A stretch of DNA of 64,000 bases, taken from contig NZ_CP097384.1 in NCBI RefSeq assembly GCF_024584705.1, forward strand, positions 5,766,001 to 5,830,000, read 5' to 3'. Below the pieces are notes generated by a model that saw nothing but the letters and a program-made list of their open reading frames with translations, had not been told where the DNA came from and made no database searches. Each line of letters starts with the position of its first letter. Position 1 is the stretch's first letter. This document shows, piece after piece, positions 44,854-53,706 of this stretch. The position numbers and the translations under genes are program-made. This stretch comes from Blastopirellula sp. J2-11. Its GTDB lineage: Bacteria > Planctomycetota > Planctomycetia > Pirellulales > Pirellulaceae.

Positions 44854-45438
44854 CTAGCAATACGTCGCTTCATACTGCTGACGACGCTCGGCGATCTCTT
44901 CATCGGTTGGCATTCCGCCGACGTCGCGGCGGCTTTTGAAGTCGATGACGAACTCTTCGATGTCGTAGGCGATTTCTTGGATCGCTGAGGGCTGCATCCG
45001 ATCAAAGAACATGATTCCGTCCAGGTGATCGGTTTCGTGCTGCACGACCCGGGCCAGCATGCCGTCAATTCTCTGGCTGAAGAGTTCCCCTTGCAGGTTG
45101 TAGGCGTCAAACTGGATCTCGGCGGGTCGCTTTACTGGACCAAATACCTGCGGCAGGCTCAAACAGCCTTCTTCCTCTTCTTCGTTCCCTTTGGGGCGCG
45201 AGATGACTGGGTTGATGAAAACCAGTTCTTCCCCTTCTCCCTTGGTCCCGGACAGATTGGCCACAAACAGGCGAATCGGCAGATCGACCTGATTCGCGGC
45301 GAGTCCGATGCCCCGATTCTCGTACATCAGCTCGAACATCTCTGCGACGATCTTGCGCAGATCGGCGTCAACCCGTTTGACCGGTTTGGATTGGTAACGA
45401 AGCGTGGGATGCGGATAATGGACAACTTCAAGCGGCAA
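44854..45438 (-). CDS. def: peptide deformylase
   Basis: 194 residues. I choose TTG 45438 (MPLEVVHYPHPTLRY) because AGGAG (45450-45446) lies seven bases upstream; a TTG at 45453 would put that site inside the gene. The three family motifs are complete: GIGLAANQ (43-50), EGCLSLP (90-96, metal ligand Cys92) and QHETDHLDG (metal ligands His134 and His138, catalytic Glu135). It removes the N-formyl group from new proteins, completing the fmt/metG pathway. A poly-Glu stretch precedes motif 2. Confidence 0.96.
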   Translation of the reverse strand: MPLEVVHYPHPTLRYQSKPVKRVDADLRKIVAEMFELMYENRGIGLAANQVDLPIRLFVANLSGTKGEGEELVFINPVISRPKGNEEEEEGCLSLPQVFGPVKRPAEIQFDAYNLQGELFSQRIDGMLARVVQHETDHLDGIMFFDRMQPSAIQEIAYDIEEFVIDFKSRRDVGGMPTDEEIAERRQQYEATYC

Positions 45439-45445
45439 CGGACAA

Positions 45446-45450
45446 CTCCT
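45446..45450 (-). promoter_or_regulatory. ribosome binding site that sets the def start
   Basis: AGGAG on the minus strand, seven bases before TTG 45438. A -10-like TATAAT is at 45508-45503 on the same strand, without a clear -35. Confidence 0.6.
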
Positions 45451-45630
45451 CAATGAGCCTCTTTCCCATCTGGGAACACGAGGGCATGGCGATAATCCAC
45501 CAATTATAGGCGAAATCTCCGTTCGGGGGAGGATGCTGACCGCCGGCGCAGCTGCAAATCCCCGCGACAGCTGAACTGACGCGCGATCCCCTGCATCACC
45601 AGAATCCCCAATGGCTAAAATGGGGCGAGC

Positions 45631-47477: not shown

Positions 47478-48467
47478 ATGATCGCACCTGTCCATCTACC
47501 TGACGCCGAGAGCGAGAAAGCGAAACGCCGTTTTGCGTTGCCGGCCTGGCTGATGTCAATGCTGGTGCATGCGTCAGTCATCGTCGTGTTGGCGATCACC
47601 ATCCGCTCGGCGCCGCGCGGCGCCGCGAGCGAACCAAGTCGCAGCGGCGGCATTGTCCTGGCCGAGCGTTCGGATGGCCGAACCGACTACGTCGACGGCG
47701 ACCAGAACGACGCCGCCGACGCGGCCAATGCTCCGTCGACCGCCGAAGCGGTGATGTCCGAAAGTTTGCCTTCGGCCGACCAACCGCCGTTGGATATGAC
47801 CGGCTTTCTGCCGACCGGCGAAGGGGGCGAAACCGACGGGTCCGATAGGACCGGCCTCCCCAGCGCCAGCGGCTTGACCGGAGGCGGCGGAGGCTCGAAG
47901 TCCGGCATTGACGGCGCCGGCACAACGCGCGTGTTTGGGATCGAAGGAACCGGCAGCAAGTTCGCCTACGTCTTTGATCGCTCCGGCAGCATGGGCAACT
48001 CGGCTGGCCGCCCGCTGGCCGCCGCCAAAGGCGAGTTACTGGCAAGTCTGCGCGAGCTCGACAAACTGCATCAATTTCAAATCATCTTCTATAACGAAGA
48101 ACCGCGCGTCTTTAACCCGCTGGGCGGAACGCCGCGGCTGATGTTCGCCGACGAACAAGGCAAAGCCCTCGCCGAACAATTTGTGGGCAGCATTGTCGCG
48201 AGCGGCGGTACGCAGCATCTGAAGGCGCTGTACATGGCGTTGGCCATGAGCCCTGACGTTATCTTCTTTTTAACCGACGCTGACGGCTCGCCGAGCGAAG
48301 AAGAGATGGCCGACATTCGCCGTCGCAACCGCAGCGCCGTGATCAACACGATCGAGTTTGGGGTCGGCCCCTGGGACGGTCGCCGCAACTTTCTCGTTCG
48401 TTTGGCCGAAGAGAACGGCGGACAGCACGTTTACGTCGACACCTCCAAGTTGAGGGCGCGCCGTTGA
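47478..48467 (+). CDS. von Willebrand A protein with TonB/TolA-like membrane anchor
   Basis: 329 residues. A basic cytosolic N-terminus (KAKRR) leads to one membrane helix (about 22-43). The helix contains Ser27-x3-His31 and Leu38 in the spacing of the TonB/TolA SHLS motif used to contact ExbB/ExbD; the final Ser is at 44 instead of 42. A Gly/Ser/Asp-rich periplasmic linker (about 45-155) follows, then a vWA domain with MIDAS D167-x-S169-x-S171 (FDRSGSMG), GGTQHL and TDADG. It starts the six-gene operon with ExbB and two ExbD. The TonB beta domain is absent. I propose that it is the energy-transducing effector. Confidence 0.85.
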   Translation: MIAPVHLPDAESEKAKRRFALPAWLMSMLVHASVIVVLAITIRSAPRGAASEPSRSGGIVLAERSDGRTDYVDGDQNDAADAANAPSTAEAVMSESLPSADQPPLDMTGFLPTGEGGETDGSDRTGLPSASGLTGGGGGSKSGIDGAGTTRVFGIEGTGSKFAYVFDRSGSMGNSAGRPLAAAKGELLASLRELDKLHQFQIIFYNEEPRVFNPLGGTPRLMFADEQGKALAEQFVGSIVASGGTQHLKALYMALAMSPDVIFFLTDADGSPSEEEMADIRRRNRSAVINTIEFGVGPWDGRRNFLVRLAEENGGQHVYVDTSKLRARR

Positions 48468-49492
48468 ACCTGCTTCGCTTGATTTTGTTCGCGCTGCTGT
48501 TGGTCCTCGGCGGCGCCGTCGGCGCCGCTGCCGAAGATCGCGTCTATCTGCAGCACTCGGTCGACTCGCGTGCGCCGGAAGTCTATGTCGGCGACGTGAA
48601 CGACTTTACCGGCGAAACCTTGAAGATGACGACGCTGAGCGGCCGGCAGATCGAGATTCCCGCCGCCAAAGTAGCACAGGTCGACTCGGATTGGCCCGAG
48701 AAGATGCGCCAAGCACAAGCCCTTGCCGCCCAAAAAAAGTTTGCCGAAGCCGAGATCGCATTCCAAGCAGCCTATCGCGCCGAACCGCGACCATGGGTCA
48801 AACGCATGTTGATCGCCGAGATGGCCCGCTGTCGACGAAATCTCGGTCGCAATGATGCAGCCGGCGACGCCTTTTTGGCGCTGGTCGCATCGGATCCTTA
48901 CACGCCGTATCTCGATGCGATGCCGTTGGCCTGGAAGACCGGCGAGCCTGACGTCAACTTGCATCGCGCGGCGATCGCCTGGCTAGAGAAAACCGATTCT
49001 CCCCACGCCCAACTGATGGGAGCCAGCTTTTTGCTCAGCGCCGCCGAACGAAGTCAGGCCATCGCGGCGCTGCAAAAACTGCGCACGGCCGCTCCTGCCG
49101 AGTTGGCCTTGCTGGCCGAAATGCAACTTTGGCGCACCGAGCCGCCGACGACGCAAACCGCCGATCGAATTGCCGAACGTCGTCCCCAAGTGGAACGCCT
49201 GCCGCGGACCGTGCAAAGCGGCCCGCGACTTTTGCTGGGTGACGCGCTTGCCCGCGACGGACAGCCGGAATCCGCGGCGCTCGAATACTTGCGGATCCCG
49301 ATCCTCGACAACGTCGACCGACCGCTGGCGGCCGAAGCGCTGTTGCGGGCCGGCAAACAACTAGAATTATTGGGGCGCCCGGTGCAAGCCAAGCGTCTCT
49401 ATCGCGAAATCATTACTGACTACCCCGCCGCCAATGCGATCGCCCGAGAGGCTTCCGCACGCATGGAACAAGCAGGCGGCGCCTCGCCGTAA
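48464..49492 (+). CDS. secreted TPR-like protein
   Basis: 342 residues from TTG 48464, overlapping the previous stop as TTGA. A signal peptide (MNLLRLILFALLLVLGGAVGAAAED) is followed by a short beta domain (VYVGDVNDFTGETLKMTTLSGRQIEIPAAKVAQVDSDW). Then come TPR-like helical pairs (AQALAAQKKFAEAEIAFQAAYRAEPRPWVKRMLIAEM; AALEYLRIPILDNVDRPLAAEALLRAGKQLELLGRPVQAKRLYREIITDYP). Probably a periplasmic scaffold. Coupled to the vWA and ExbB genes. Confidence 0.82.
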   Translation: MNLLRLILFALLLVLGGAVGAAAEDRVYLQHSVDSRAPEVYVGDVNDFTGETLKMTTLSGRQIEIPAAKVAQVDSDWPEKMRQAQALAAQKKFAEAEIAFQAAYRAEPRPWVKRMLIAEMARCRRNLGRNDAAGDAFLALVASDPYTPYLDAMPLAWKTGEPDVNLHRAAIAWLEKTDSPHAQLMGASFLLSAAERSQAIAALQKLRTAAPAELALLAEMQLWRTEPPTTQTADRIAERRPQVERLPRTVQSGPRLLLGDALARDGQPESAALEYLRIPILDNVDRPLAAEALLRAGKQLELLGRPVQAKRLYREIITDYPAANAIAREASARMEQAGGASP

Positions 49493-49496
49493 GGAG
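49491..49496 (+). promoter_or_regulatory. ribosome binding site that sets the exbB start
   Basis: AAGGAG, six bases before TTG 49503. The next ATG (49512) would be 15 bases away. The site overlaps the stop codon of the preceding gene. Confidence 0.65.
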
Positions 49497-49502
49497 ACGA
49501 AC

Positions 49503-50342
49503 TTGGCGAATATGACGCGCATCATGATCTGGTCCCTCGCGCTGACGTTGATCGGCGGCGGCTACTGGTTCATCACGCAGCAACCCTCGGTTGCAACCAC
49601 GCTATTGGCGCAAGACGCGAACACGCCGGCTGGCGCTGCGCCGCTTGAGAGTCCCCCCAGCCAACCGGCGGAAGGGACCGGCTTTATCGACATTTTGCTT
49701 TCCGGCGGGATCGTCGGCAATTTGATCATGCTGCTGTTGCTCGCGCTCTCGTTGACCGCAGCTTACCTCGTTTTTGAACATGCGATGGCGATTCGCCACA
49801 AAGAGCTTTCGCCGCCAGGACTGGCCGATGAAGTCCGCGAGCAGTTGATCGCCGGCAACGTGAAGGAAGCGGAAAAGGTTTGCCATACGCATCCCAGCTT
49901 TCTGTCGTTTGTATTGTTAAGCGGGATCGCCGAACTCGACAGCGGTTGGACCGGCGTCGAGAAGGCGCTTGAAGATTCAGTCGCTGAGCAGTCAGCACGG
50001 CTCTTTCGCAAGATCGAGTACCTCTCGGTGATCGGCAACATCGCGCCGATGGTCGGTCTGCTAGGGACGGTGACCGGGATGATTTTCGCTTTCCAGCAAG
50101 TCGCCAGCACGCAAGGCGCCGCCGGCGCGGCTGATCTGGCGGAAGGAATTTATCAAGCGCTGGTCACCACGGTCGGCGGACTACTGGTCGCGATTCCTTC
50201 GCTCGGCGCATTCGCCGTGTTTCGCAACTGGGTCGACGAATTGGTCGCGGAATGCGCCTATGAAGCGCAGCAGGTCTTCACACCGCTCAAACGTCGCCGT
50301 CGTCAAACGGCCGCTCCCACGCAGGGAGGCCGCAGCGGATGA
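49503..50342 (+). CDS. exbB: MotA/TolQ/ExbB proton-channel protein
   Basis: 279 residues from TTG 49503. An extra N-terminal helix (WSLALTLIGGGYWF) with a periplasmic Pro-rich linker precedes the core. The core has a helix at about 63-85 (IVGNLIMLLLLALSLTAAYLVF), a cytosolic domain, and the paired C-terminal helices with NIAPMVGLLGTVTGMIFAFQQV and ALVTTVGGLLVAIPSLGAF, the ExbB signature containing the proton-path Thr residues. It forms the pentameric stator that converts proton flow into motion. The added N-terminal helix is common in planctomycete and proteobacterial ExbB variants. Confidence 0.93.
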   Translation: MANMTRIMIWSLALTLIGGGYWFITQQPSVATTLLAQDANTPAGAAPLESPPSQPAEGTGFIDILLSGGIVGNLIMLLLLALSLTAAYLVFEHAMAIRHKELSPPGLADEVREQLIAGNVKEAEKVCHTHPSFLSFVLLSGIAELDSGWTGVEKALEDSVAEQSARLFRKIEYLSVIGNIAPMVGLLGTVTGMIFAFQQVASTQGAAGAADLAEGIYQALVTTVGGLLVAIPSLGAFAVFRNWVDELVAECAYEAQQVFTPLKRRRRQTAAPTQGGRSG

Positions 50343-50767
50343 AAGTCCACGCCAACCTCAGGCCAGGACAATTCGACTTCAACATGACGCCGATGATCGA
50401 CGTCGTCTTTTTGTTGATCATTTTCTTTCTCGTCTCCAGCCATTTGGCGAAACAAGAAAGTCAATTGCCGCTGCCGTTGCCGACCGCGGAAACCGGCAAC
50501 GAGATCATCGACGACGAACGTCCGCGCGTGGTGGTCAACGTCGCAAAAGATGGTCGCGTCTTGTTGGCGGGCAAGCCGGTGACGCTGGAAGAAATCGGCC
50601 AGCGACTCGAGTTTCAGCGCAGCCAATCAGGCGACGACCTGGAAGTTCGTATTCGCTGCGATCGTGATGTCGCCTACGAACATGTGAAACCCATCATGTT
50701 GGCCGCCGCCGAAGCCGGCGTCTGGAACGTGAACTTTGCGGTGATTCGCGGGGAGGACGCTCGCTGA
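50339..50767 (+). CDS. exbD: ExbD/TolR protein, first copy
   Basis: 142 residues, start overlapping exbB stop (ATGA). One N-terminal helix (FNMTPMIDVVFLLIIFFLVS) carries the essential protonatable Asp21. A periplasmic domain follows (RPRVVVNVAKDGRVLLAGKPVTLEEIGQRL ... VRIRCDRDVAYEHVKPIMLAAAEAGVWNVNFAV). Standard TolR/ExbD fold and length. Confidence 0.95.
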   Translation: MKVHANLRPGQFDFNMTPMIDVVFLLIIFFLVSSHLAKQESQLPLPLPTAETGNEIIDDERPRVVVNVAKDGRVLLAGKPVTLEEIGQRLEFQRSQSGDDLEVRIRCDRDVAYEHVKPIMLAAAEAGVWNVNFAVIRGEDAR

Positions 50768-51213
50768 TGCGCCGCTCGTCTCCCTACGTCGACCGCCAGA
50801 GTTTACAGATTTCGATGACGCCGATGATCGACGTCGTCTTCCTGCTGCTGGTCTTCTTTTTGTGGACCGCCAGCTTTCAGGTCGTCGAGTATTCGCTTCC
50901 CAGCAACCTGACGCCGCAGATGGGAACCGGCGCTAACGTCCAACCGCCCCCCGAGCTGGCCGACTTTGAGCAAGTGGTCGTTCGCCTGACCGAAGAACGG
51001 GGCCGTTTGGTCTGGAAGGTAAACGATCAACCCCGTTTTCAACTATCCGAGGTGCGTCAATTGATGCAGACGTTGGCCTCGATCAAGAACGACGTGCCGC
51101 TGGTGATTGACGCCGATGGCGCCGTCGGAGTCGGCGACGTGATCGACATCTATGACCTGGCCCGTGAGCTGAATTTTCAAGACATCCAATTCGCCGTCGA
51201 CGCAAAAAGCTGA
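50767..51213 (+). CDS. exbD: ExbD/TolR protein, second copy
   Basis: 148 residues, start sharing one base with the previous stop (TGATG). ISMTPMIDVVFLLLVFFLW carries the essential Asp22. The periplasmic domain (EQVVVRLTEERGRLVWKVNDQPRFQLSEVRQLMQTLASIKNDVPLVIDADGAVGVGDVIDIYDLARELNFQDIQFAV) is diverged from the first copy. ExbB pentamers enclose an ExbD dimer, so the two copies could form a heterodimer. Confidence 0.95.
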   Translation: MRRSSPYVDRQSLQISMTPMIDVVFLLLVFFLWTASFQVVEYSLPSNLTPQMGTGANVQPPPELADFEQVVVRLTEERGRLVWKVNDQPRFQLSEVRQLMQTLASIKNDVPLVIDADGAVGVGDVIDIYDLARELNFQDIQFAVDAKS

Positions 51214-51222
51214 GCGTTCGTC

Positions 51223-53706
51223 ATGCCGCGTAAACCGACAATCTGCAAGCTCCTCGGACTGACGCTGCTGCTCTGCGCTGGCCGGCTCTGCGCGGATGAA
51301 TCGGCCGACGTGCAGATGATCGCCGGGCTGCGACAACGGCAACTGTTCGCCCTGGCCGAAAAATACGCCGCCGAACGATTGGTCGCGCCAGACCAGGATC
51401 AGGCCGAGCGCAGCGTGTTGGCCGGCGAGTTGATTCGCACCTTCGCCGCGCATGCGCTCAATTCGCCAACCGGCGATCGCAATCGTTGGTGGACCGCCGC
51501 GCAGAGCGTGCCAACCGAATACGCCAAGCAGTTTGGGGGCGACCCGCGACAGATTATCGTCGAATCCCAAAGCGCGCTCGCGATGCTCGCCCAAGCCGAG
51601 CAAATTCGGCAAGAGTCCGAACTCGGCGCCGCCGGCGCCGAATCGGTTGAGCAAACGCAGCTGCTGTTGCGCAAGTCGATCGCGCGGCTGGAAGGTTTGC
51701 TGGCCGAAGCGAAACGACTGACGATCGCCGCCGATCTGCAGCGCGGCGCACCAGGGCTATCAGGTGAAGAACTGACCGGGCTATCGCGCAACTTACAGTT
51801 TGAATTGGCCCGCGCACTTGAGAATCAGGCGCTCACCTATCCGCCAGAAAGTCTTGATCGGATCAACTCGCTGACGCAAGTTTTAACAACGCTCGACCCG
51901 CTGACCAAGTTGGGGGATTCGTCGCCGATTACGTGGCCAAGTCGTTTGGCCGAAATCCGAGCTTTGCGATTGTTGCAAAAATATGCGGAAGCGGAGAACG
52001 CGATCATAACGCTCGCCGACGGTAAGCCGCCGGCCGGCGTATTGCTGAAAGCGAAGGCCGAGCAGATTCGCTTGGCGCTCGATGCCGGACAAATCGACGT
52101 TGCGAAACAACTGATCGATCAGGGACGTCAACTGAACGGCGTCACTTCGCCGGAACTCGACTTCGCTTACTTTCAGACCTACGTCGCGCTCTGGCAAGCG
52201 GCCGCCAAAAATGGGGACGCAGCCGGAGCCAAATGGCAAGCGCAAGCTTCTGCCGTCATTCGCGATCTTGAGCAACTTTACGGCGCCTATTGGGCGCGCC
52301 GCGCTGAACTGCTGCTGACGCAAAACGCTCAATCGGCCGGAACCAAAGACATTGATCTGCTCCAGCGAACTGCCGACGGATACTACCGCCGCGGGCAATA
52401 TGTCGATGCGATCGCGACGTATGATCGCGCGGCGGCCGCCGCAGCGGAAGAGAAAAAAGGGGACCGCGAGTTTCAACTGCGGCAGACGGCCGCGGCGGTC
52501 TTGGCGAAACAACAGCGGTACGCCGACGCCGCGAAACGACTCCGGCAACTCGCCAATCTGTTTCCGTCGCAAGAGAAAGCGGGAGAAACTCACTTAACTT
52601 CCGCCTACTATCAATCACTGGCGATGCGAGCCGATCCCAGCCTTAACGACAAGACCTATGTCGATCAATTGCGTGAGCACCTGATCCGCTGGCCGACCAG
52701 CCAAACGGCCGATCGCGCGCGACTCTGGTTGGCTCAGTATCAACTGGCCAACGGAGATGCCGGCCAAGCGGTCGATACGCTGCTGCCGATTCCGGCCGAT
52801 TTTGACGAAGCGGAGGAAGCGGCGATTTTAGCGGCGGCGGCGATTCGGGAGCATTTTTCCCAAGCCAGCGCCACCGGAGAAATATCACCGCGCGACGTCG
52901 CGCAAGTGCAATCCTTTCTCGAACGGTATGCGCTGACCTCGCCATCGGCTGAAGCGCGCCGCACAGCCGCCGAAGCGCTGGCCGAACTGCTGCTGTTTTA
53001 CGTGAAGAATGGCTATGCCACGGCGCAAACGACCATTCGCTTGGCCCTACAAGCCAACGCCGACGCTCCGATAAATTGGCGCAGTCGGATGCAGTCGCTG
53101 TTGGTTATCGCGCTTGCCGGCGGTGGAGACGAACAAGGCGCCGCCGCCGCCCTGGCCGACGTGAGCGGCGGTGAGCCGGAGAAGCTGTTTCAAGTGATCG
53201 CCGCTTTGCAACAGATCAGTCGCACCGCGAGAGGAGACGCCAAATCGCAACTCGCCAAACTGCAGTTGCAAGCGATCGAACAGCTTAAGCCGCGTGCTGT
53301 GCAATTGCCGCCGCCGCAACAATCGCAACTGCAAAAGCTTGAAGCCGACGCGTTGGCCGCTTCCGGAAACCGTCAGGCGGCGCTAGCCGAGATGCGCACC
53401 GTCGCTCAAACCCAGCCAAAAGACGTGGTGCTGCAAGTCGCGCTGGCCGAACTGTTAGCCGCCGACGGCTCGGTCGCCGAGCGCCGCGAAGCGCTAAATA
53501 TCTGGCGTTTGATCGGCGCCAGGATGAGCCAACCGCAATCGGATCGCTGGTATCAAGCGAAGTACGAAACGGCCCGTCTGCAAATCACGCTAGGCGAGAA
53601 CGAGGAAGCGGCGAAACTGCTGAAGTACCTGCAGACGCTCTACCCCGATCTCGGCGGCCCCCAGTGGAAGCCGAGATTTGAGAAGTTGATTACAACAGCA
53701 AAGTAG
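51223..53706 (+). CDS. large secreted TPR-repeat protein
   Basis: 827 residues with a signal peptide (KPTICKLLGLTLLLCAGRLCADES). The rest is helical TPR-like repeats rich in Ala, Gln and Leu, for example GYYRRGQYVDAIATYDRAAAAAAEEKKGDREFQLRQTAAAVLAKQQRYADAAKRLRQLANLFPSQEKA and a final pair ending ENEEAAKLLKYLQTLYPDLGGPQW. It starts nine bases after the second exbD and closes the operon. It is probably a periplasmic scaffold or partner of the vWA domain, as YbgF/CpoB is for Tol-Pal, though much larger. Confidence 0.85.
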   Translation: MPRKPTICKLLGLTLLLCAGRLCADESADVQMIAGLRQRQLFALAEKYAAERLVAPDQDQAERSVLAGELIRTFAAHALNSPTGDRNRWWTAAQSVPTEYAKQFGGDPRQIIVESQSALAMLAQAEQIRQESELGAAGAESVEQTQLLLRKSIARLEGLLAEAKRLTIAADLQRGAPGLSGEELTGLSRNLQFELARALENQALTYPPESLDRINSLTQVLTTLDPLTKLGDSSPITWPSRLAEIRALRLLQKYAEAENAIITLADGKPPAGVLLKAKAEQIRLALDAGQIDVAKQLIDQGRQLNGVTSPELDFAYFQTYVALWQAAAKNGDAAGAKWQAQASAVIRDLEQLYGAYWARRAELLLTQNAQSAGTKDIDLLQRTADGYYRRGQYVDAIATYDRAAAAAAEEKKGDREFQLRQTAAAVLAKQQRYADAAKRLRQLANLFPSQEKAGETHLTSAYYQSLAMRADPSLNDKTYVDQLREHLIRWPTSQTADRARLWLAQYQLANGDAGQAVDTLLPIPADFDEAEEAAILAAAAIREHFSQASATGEISPRDVAQVQSFLERYALTSPSAEARRTAAEALAELLLFYVKNGYATAQTTIRLALQANADAPINWRSRMQSLLVIALAGGGDEQGAAAALADVSGGEPEKLFQVIAALQQISRTARGDAKSQLAKLQLQAIEQLKPRAVQLPPPQQSQLQKLEADALAASGNRQAALAEMRTVAQTQPKDVVLQVALAELLAADGSVAERREALNIWRLIGARMSQPQSDRWYQAKYETARLQITLGENEEAAKLLKYLQTLYPDLGGPQWKPRFEKLITTAK

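Follow-up and report, generated by a model that had tools for sequence, protein, structure and literature searches.

A putative proton motor-anchored vWA protein encoded with ExbB, two ExbD proteins and two TPR proteins in Blastopirellula sp. J2-11

We analyzed a six-gene operon of the planctomycete Blastopirellula sp. J2-11, which lies in a 64,000-nucleotide stretch of contig NZ_CP097384.1 (assembly GCF_024584705.1, positions 5,766,001 to 5,830,000 of the forward strand) that we call the window, with positions in the list below counted from its first letter. The operon encodes a protein with a von Willebrand factor A (vWA) domain, a tetratricopeptide repeat (TPR) protein (TPR1), an ExbB/TolQ-like protein, two ExbD proteins (ExbD1 and ExbD2) and a second TPR protein (TPR2). 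Open reading frame (ORF) calls bore out the original prediction, made from the DNA letters, that these genes run in one direction and are joined, in order, by a 4-base overlap, a 10-base gap, a 4-base overlap, a 1-base overlap, and a 9-base gap. The features are as follows.

47478-48467, + strand: vWA force-transducer candidate, 329 aa (ORF calls, AlphaFold2, Foldseek)
47544-47606, + strand: anchor helix, vWA residues 23-43 (AlphaFold2 helix), with Ser27 at 47556-47558 and His31 at 47568-47570
47646-47660, + strand: GGIVL segment, vWA residues 57-61, a candidate D-box or motor box for ExbD, assigned tentatively from the conservation profile and the spacing from the His
47919-48443, + strand: vWA domain, residues 148-322 (AlphaFold2, Foldseek), with presumed metal ion-dependent adhesion site (MIDAS) residues D167, S169, S171, T245, and D267
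48464-49492, + strand: TPR1, 342 aa, TTG start, with a signal-peptide-like start, a small beta domain at about residues 25-74, and TPR helices
49503-50342, + strand: ExbB/TolQ-like motor protein, TTG start after AAGGAG, with Ser83 (49749-49751) in transmembrane helix 1 (TM1), pore residues Thr189 and Thr223, and Pro232
50339-50767, + strand: ExbD1, with proton-binding Asp21 at 50399-50401 (Pfam, conservation, tree)
50767-51213, + strand: ExbD2, with proton-binding Asp22 at 50830-50832 (Pfam, conservation, tree)
51223-53706, + strand: TPR2, 827 aa, with a signal-peptide-like start and a weak YbgF/TPR-type match

Pfam matched the motor proteins to MotA_ExbB (93.9 bits) and ExbD (94.1 and 76.5 bits) and placed a TPR match within TPR1; its vWA match, at 21.4 bits, fell under the cut-off of 27. 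In the AlphaFold2 model of the vWA protein, based on 51 aligned sequences, residues 23-43 form a helix, the linker (about 100 residues) is poorly ordered and for the most part disordered, and most of the vWA domain has a predicted local distance difference test (pLDDT) score above 90. Foldseek matched this model to many vWA domains, for example that of Bacteroides BatB. In this domain, D167, S169, S171, T245, and D267 form what we take to be the MIDAS motif, and all five are present in 80 of 80 loci from relatives, although four of them are part of the patterns used to search for vWA proteins and T245 alone lies outside them; Ser27 and His31 are in none of these patterns. These 80 loci are the best 80 of 386 relatives from one scan, and the closest named relative found was Blastopirellula marina DSM 3645, with a vWA protein 96% identical to that of the window. 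The prediction that the six genes encode no TonB C-terminal domain, Pal, or TolB also held, as Pfam and the fold give a vWA domain instead; neither TolB nor Pal was found among the six genes with Pfam or NCBIfam, and no genome-wide TolB search was made. Two OmpA-type proteins are encoded elsewhere in the same genome.

The vWA anchor helix carries the Ser27-x3-His31 motif that had been predicted for it, together with Leu38. The S-x3-H motif is kept in 79 of the 79 loci in which it can be read, the 80th locus being truncated, and in 91 of 91 readable rows of a wider set (92 rows, among them the window and duplicates of some genomes). Within the helix, conservation is highest at Ser and His, with Trp24 following (83/92) and the other positions variable; Leu38, which the prediction had named along with the motif, is moderately conserved (64/92 rows). 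Among the 21 ORFs of at least 150 aa in the window that have an N-terminal hydrophobic stretch, the vWA protein is the only one with S-x3-H in it, and this, together with the conservation of Ser and His, argues that the motif is more than a chance occurrence. Another 20 loci, drawn from the class and phylum, all have the motif, and 15 of them have an ExbB nearby. Past the helix, a D-box-like pattern, G-[IVLA]-x-[LVIFM], is present in 76 of 91 group A rows, and in 65 of them its first hydrophobic residue lies 28 to 29 residues after the His.

We found the residues expected of a proton motor in ExbB and in both ExbD proteins. The TM1 serine, which we take to be the equivalent of Ser34 in Escherichia coli ExbB and Ser28 in TolQ, is invariant in the 73 cassette ExbB proteins, and 72 or 73 of these proteins retain the pore threonines and proline; the counts exclude five more remote ExbB rows, four with Ser and one (L042) with Ala. 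In cryo-electron microscopy structures, as described in PMC12215075, E. coli ExbB Ser34 and TolQ Ser28 contact TonB Ser16/His20 and TolA His22. Across the window and 82 loci, the proton-binding Asp is present in 83 of 83 first ExbD proteins and 83 of 83 second ExbD proteins. A tree was built from 58 of these 166 proteins, taken from the window and 28 loci, and has Shimodaira-Hasegawa-like approximate likelihood ratio test supports only, several of them moderate; in it, the first and second types separate, with two label changes compared to 19.6 in shuffles. The sole exception is L041, a cluster of the same genome that is without this vWA family and whose two ExbD proteins have long branches. 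Since the pair also separates in a paralogous cassette (L040) and in other classes, the two ExbD types appear to be older than the split of the two vWA cassette families, both of which have them in the same order.

The AlphaFold2 model of TPR1 (mean pLDDT, 93.2) combines the small beta domain with TPR helices, and the 50 Foldseek matches listed for it, which score weakly, are to proteins built of TPR or other helical repeats. TPR2 had no Pfam match above the cut-off and a weak YbgF-type match in NCBIfam (22.9 bits; cut-off, 90.1). In four genomes, TPR1 and TPR2 lie in one frame with no motor genes between them (L265, L270, L272, and L084; the fused frame is found in G040, G046, G058, and, as L084, G049), and these fusions show no more than that both proteins can form one chain.

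Conservation of the gene order was counted in the 52 of 80 loci that have at least 6.2 kb of DNA downstream of the vWA gene. The full six-gene order is present in 34 of these 52, and ExbB and two ExbD genes lie near the vWA gene in 43. Among the remainder, 6 are without a recognizable TPR2, 3 without a recognizable TPR1, and 9 without a nearby ExbB; since these same loci supplied the profiles, a TPR that seems absent may simply have escaped matching. Each of the nine genomes with no ExbB nearby encodes one elsewhere, at 50 to 61% identity to the window ExbB in five and at most 37% in four. The predicted co-conservation thus stood, though 10 of 60 genomes keep a vWA protein without a cassette ExbB. 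A vWA homologue was found in 59 of the 60 genomes searched, which include that of J2-11. A phylum-wide tally (237 of 294 genomes) was set aside, as it mixes the cassette vWA family with generic vWA domains. One vWA gene (L102) lies on a contig binned as Candidatus Nealsonbacteria; this contig is probably mis-binned, because the tree neighbor of L102 is the Pirellulales locus L117.

The J2-11 genome itself holds a second full vWA-TPR-ExbB-ExbD-ExbD-TPR cassette (L040 4270-10680; G000:C1 about 1615270-1621680), whose vWA protein starts with a zinc-ribbon-like CxxC pair and reads SFIVH in its anchor helix, and two further ExbB-ExbD-ExbD clusters. One of these (L041 8140-16685; G000:C1 about 2204100-2212700) has the order TPR-TPR-ExbB-ExbD-ExbD without this vWA family, and the gene next upstream encodes a larger protein, for which a YfbK-type match was weak and under the cut-off. 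Another ExbB-ExbD-ExbD cluster (L042 3921-14069) yielded no protein of this vWA family; its second ExbD has an N-terminal zinc-ribbon-like CxxC pair, and its ExbB is the one with Ala at the aligned TM1 serine position.

Outside the cassettes, we found two groups of vWA proteins, B and C, with no cassette gene in the fetched stretches (mostly 13 kb; 2.1 kb downstream in L175). The S-x3-H motif is present in all 9 loci of group B, and the 10 proteins from the 8 loci of group C have the His in 10 and the Ser in 9. In the vWA tree, eight of the nine group B proteins form one clade and L176 is placed elsewhere; a label-change count on this tree was not used, as the contig-cut loci L066, L102, L111, L129, and L132 had been labeled "orphan." Where the best vWA match belongs to the B type (five genomes, typed by tree clade in three and by score only in G008 and G029), the cassette lies elsewhere and in all five has the order TPR1-ExbB-ExbD1-ExbD2-TPR2 without a vWA gene. 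Other genomes hold both an adjacent vWA gene and a B copy.

We also compared the anchor between genomes with and without a cassette-grade ExbB, defined by our own cut-off of an E value below 1e-60. All 60 genomes have some ExbB, and 49 of them, counted with that of J2-11 in the set, have one of cassette grade, while 11 do not. In the 49, the best vWA protein has S-x3-H in 47 and is cut by contig ends in 2. In the 10 genomes that have a vWA protein and no cassette-grade ExbB, seven best vWA proteins have S-x3-H and three have, by eye, a signal-peptide-like start; these anchor-less relatives are L266, L267, and L269. The prediction had named loss of Ser27/His31 in orthologues as evidence against it; the three losses that we found, all in genomes without cassette-grade ExbB, do not refute it. 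The odds that all three fall within the ten are about 0.004 with the two cut rows excluded and 0.03 with the cut rows counted as losses, and, since the genomes are related, neither value is a clean probability.

We favor, at a probability of roughly 70%, an explanation in which a motor of ExbB and ExbD1/ExbD2, driven by the proton motive force, exerts a pull on a MIDAS vWA domain, which has two periplasmic TPR proteins as working partners. In this mechanism, a ring of ExbB around an ExbD1/ExbD2 pair would form an inner membrane proton motor, and the vWA helix would dock on ExbB TM1 via Ser27 and His31, much as TonB does via Ser16 and His20. The periplasmic ExbD domains would capture the GGIVL segment just past the membrane in the manner of the TonB D-box, a role that this segment probably has. 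The linker would carry the vWA domain over the periplasm to act with TPR1 and TPR2 on a ligand, and proton flow would put force on the vWA domain or its bound partner. A motor-anchored vWA transducer is supported by anatomy and comparison: the gene order, the conserved motif, the persistence of two ExbD types, and the restriction of anchor loss to genomes without the cassette ExbB are observed, while the physical contact, stoichiometry, proton flow, force direction, and vWA-TPR contact are inferred.

Four observations weigh against this explanation. Seven of the ten vWA proteins kept without a cassette-grade ExbB retain S-x3-H, so that the vWA protein may not depend strictly on that ExbB, another ExbB may serve it, or the motif may be used otherwise. 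In the AlphaFold2 model, the linker strands at residues 61-65 and 68-72 merely touch the GGIVL segment. The D-box-like pattern is sparser outside group A (5 of 9 group B, 1 of 11 C-type, and 7 of 20 class and phylum rows). Finally, in E. coli ExbB and TolQ, the contact Ser is followed by a Trp that the cassette ExbB proteins examined do not have. As side observations, several class and phylum, B and C-type rows without the D-box-like pattern show a similar strand-like stretch by eye, and compensation for the missing ExbB Trp by vWA Trp24 was considered and rejected, since relatives without Trp24 regain no ExbB Trp.

The vWA protein and the TPR proteins could instead form a force-free periplasmic chaperone or adhesion complex to which the motor genes are merely linked. 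Such a complex would suit the 6 of 10 genomes without cassette-grade ExbB in which vWA, TPR1, and TPR2 stay together (G037, G040, G046, G054, G058, and G049) and the secreted-looking, anchor-less vWA proteins in 3 of the 10, but it is made unlikely by S-x3-H, found in all 47 readable vWA proteins of genomes with the cassette ExbB, and by the joint retention of vWA and motor in five genomes despite their being unlinked. A rather improbable alternative is that the docked vWA protein gates the motor by sensing tension or metal, the output then going via TPR2 or another partner. Conserved MIDAS residues would suit regulated binding, and the Ser-His pair of the SHLS motif has been proposed to signal from TonB/TolA to ExbB/TolQ (PMC12215075), yet the anatomy of the protein (motor helix, linker, and end domain) matches that of TonB/TolA, and no membrane helix with a motor motif was seen in TPR1 or TPR2, with no predictor run on TPR2. 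A gliding or adhesion machine would have a precedent in Myxococcus, where AglR resembles TolQ, AglQ and AglS both resemble TolR, and CglB contains a vWA domain (PMC4488436), and a gliding link is also suggested in PMC12204202; we consider this reading of the operon very improbable, as CglB is an outer membrane lipoprotein and the vWA protein here has an anchor of inner membrane type.

Starting from the motor-anchored transducer, it is possible, though we hold this tentatively and at less than even odds, that these operons represent a planctomycete third class of energized envelope machine, in addition to Ton and Tol. An obligate ExbD1/ExbD2 heterodimer, older than the split of the cassette families, would be the axle of this machine and would hard-wire the one-sided D-box capture that in E. 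coli is the work of an ExbD homodimer, in which one strand of the TonB D-box meets the two chains differently (PMC10907165). The vWA transducers could be encoded apart and serve the motor in trans, and the vWA-TPR1-TPR2 unit would be detachable, working in some lineages on another motor or free of an anchor. The two old ExbD types bear on symmetry breaking in such motors, and the unlinked copies, motor-only cassettes, and anchor-less vWA proteins are ready comparisons for asking whether proton motors pull vWA domains.

Upstream of the cassette, on the opposite strand, lies a peptide deformylase gene (window 44854-45453). A homologous upstream ORF group, of which one representative proved to be a deformylase, occurs in 40 of 80 relatives, so the cassette lies in an old neighborhood. 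The recurring neighbors were rejected as a clue to function, as the upstream pair is a peptide deformylase and a formyltransferase (one representative each), which are housekeeping genes.

Compared to known systems, the operon shares with TonB-ExbB-ExbD the S-x3-H anchor, the ExbB/ExbD motor, and a D-box-like segment, and differs in having two ExbD types, two TPR proteins, and no receptor. The TonB protein of the same genome has S-x3-H and a GGTVML segment at a spacing similar to that of the vWA protein, and 9 of 10 fetched proteins with a TonB_C domain have the motif. The vWA protein is like TonB/TolA at its motor end, yet outside those families because its C-terminal domain differs. The idea that a TonB-like helix anchors it to the ExbB-ExbD-ExbD motor gained support from conservation, synteny, and the two natural experiments above, but the wording of the original prediction, a "TonB/TolA substitute," was too strong, because the same genome also encodes a TonB_C protein and, elsewhere than in the operon, one TonB-dependent receptor. 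TonB_C was found in 33 of the 60 genomes, J2-11 included, so vWA was found more often (59 versus 33), in searches that differ in kind and sensitivity. With Tol-Pal the operon shares the motor type, the anchor motif, and a TPR protein weakly like YbgF/CpoB, and it is without the TolA C-terminal domain, TolB, and Pal among its six genes. With AglR-AglQ-AglS and CglB it shares one TolQ-like and two TolR-like proteins and the involvement of a vWA protein, and the outer membrane lipoprotein CglB differs from the inner membrane type anchor found here.

Inner membrane vWA force transducers were already proposed in 2025 for planctomycetes, the wider Planctomycetes-Verrucomicrobia-Chlamydiae group, and other groups by Williams-Jones et al. 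(PMC12204202), who describe a TPR protein, a TolQ-like protein, and a pair of TolR-like proteins together with a vWA protein that has an SHLS helix and, in its linker, a predicted motor box. Their AlphaFold3 models place the helix on the motor via the conserved His, and the paper states that deletion phenotypes had not been reported. The titles and abstract beginnings listed in our literature search held no other description of such a system, and Rhodopirellula RB7557, a vWA protein of 327 aa that is tabulated among genes repressed under stress (PMC2754498), could not, for want of its sequence, be assigned to this family. A second family in PMC12204202, the TPH-vWA/TolQ pairs, likewise joins a vWA protein to a TolQ-like protein, but is described there as being without TolR/ExbD and the SHLS residues, both of which are present here. 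The J2-11 operon agrees with the published transducers in its SHLS-type helix, disordered linker, vWA fold, TolQ-like protein, two heterologous TolR-like proteins, and TPR protein; in the published systems, vWA is often downstream of the TPR and motor genes, whereas here vWA leads the operon and the motor has a TPR gene on either side. The accessible part of that paper mentions neither anchor loss, nor SHLS-vWA copies that are unlinked, nor a second TPR gene. The locus is therefore a member of the published vWA force-transducer kind, the original prediction is an independent rediscovery of it, and our genome comparisons strengthen the 2025 proposal.

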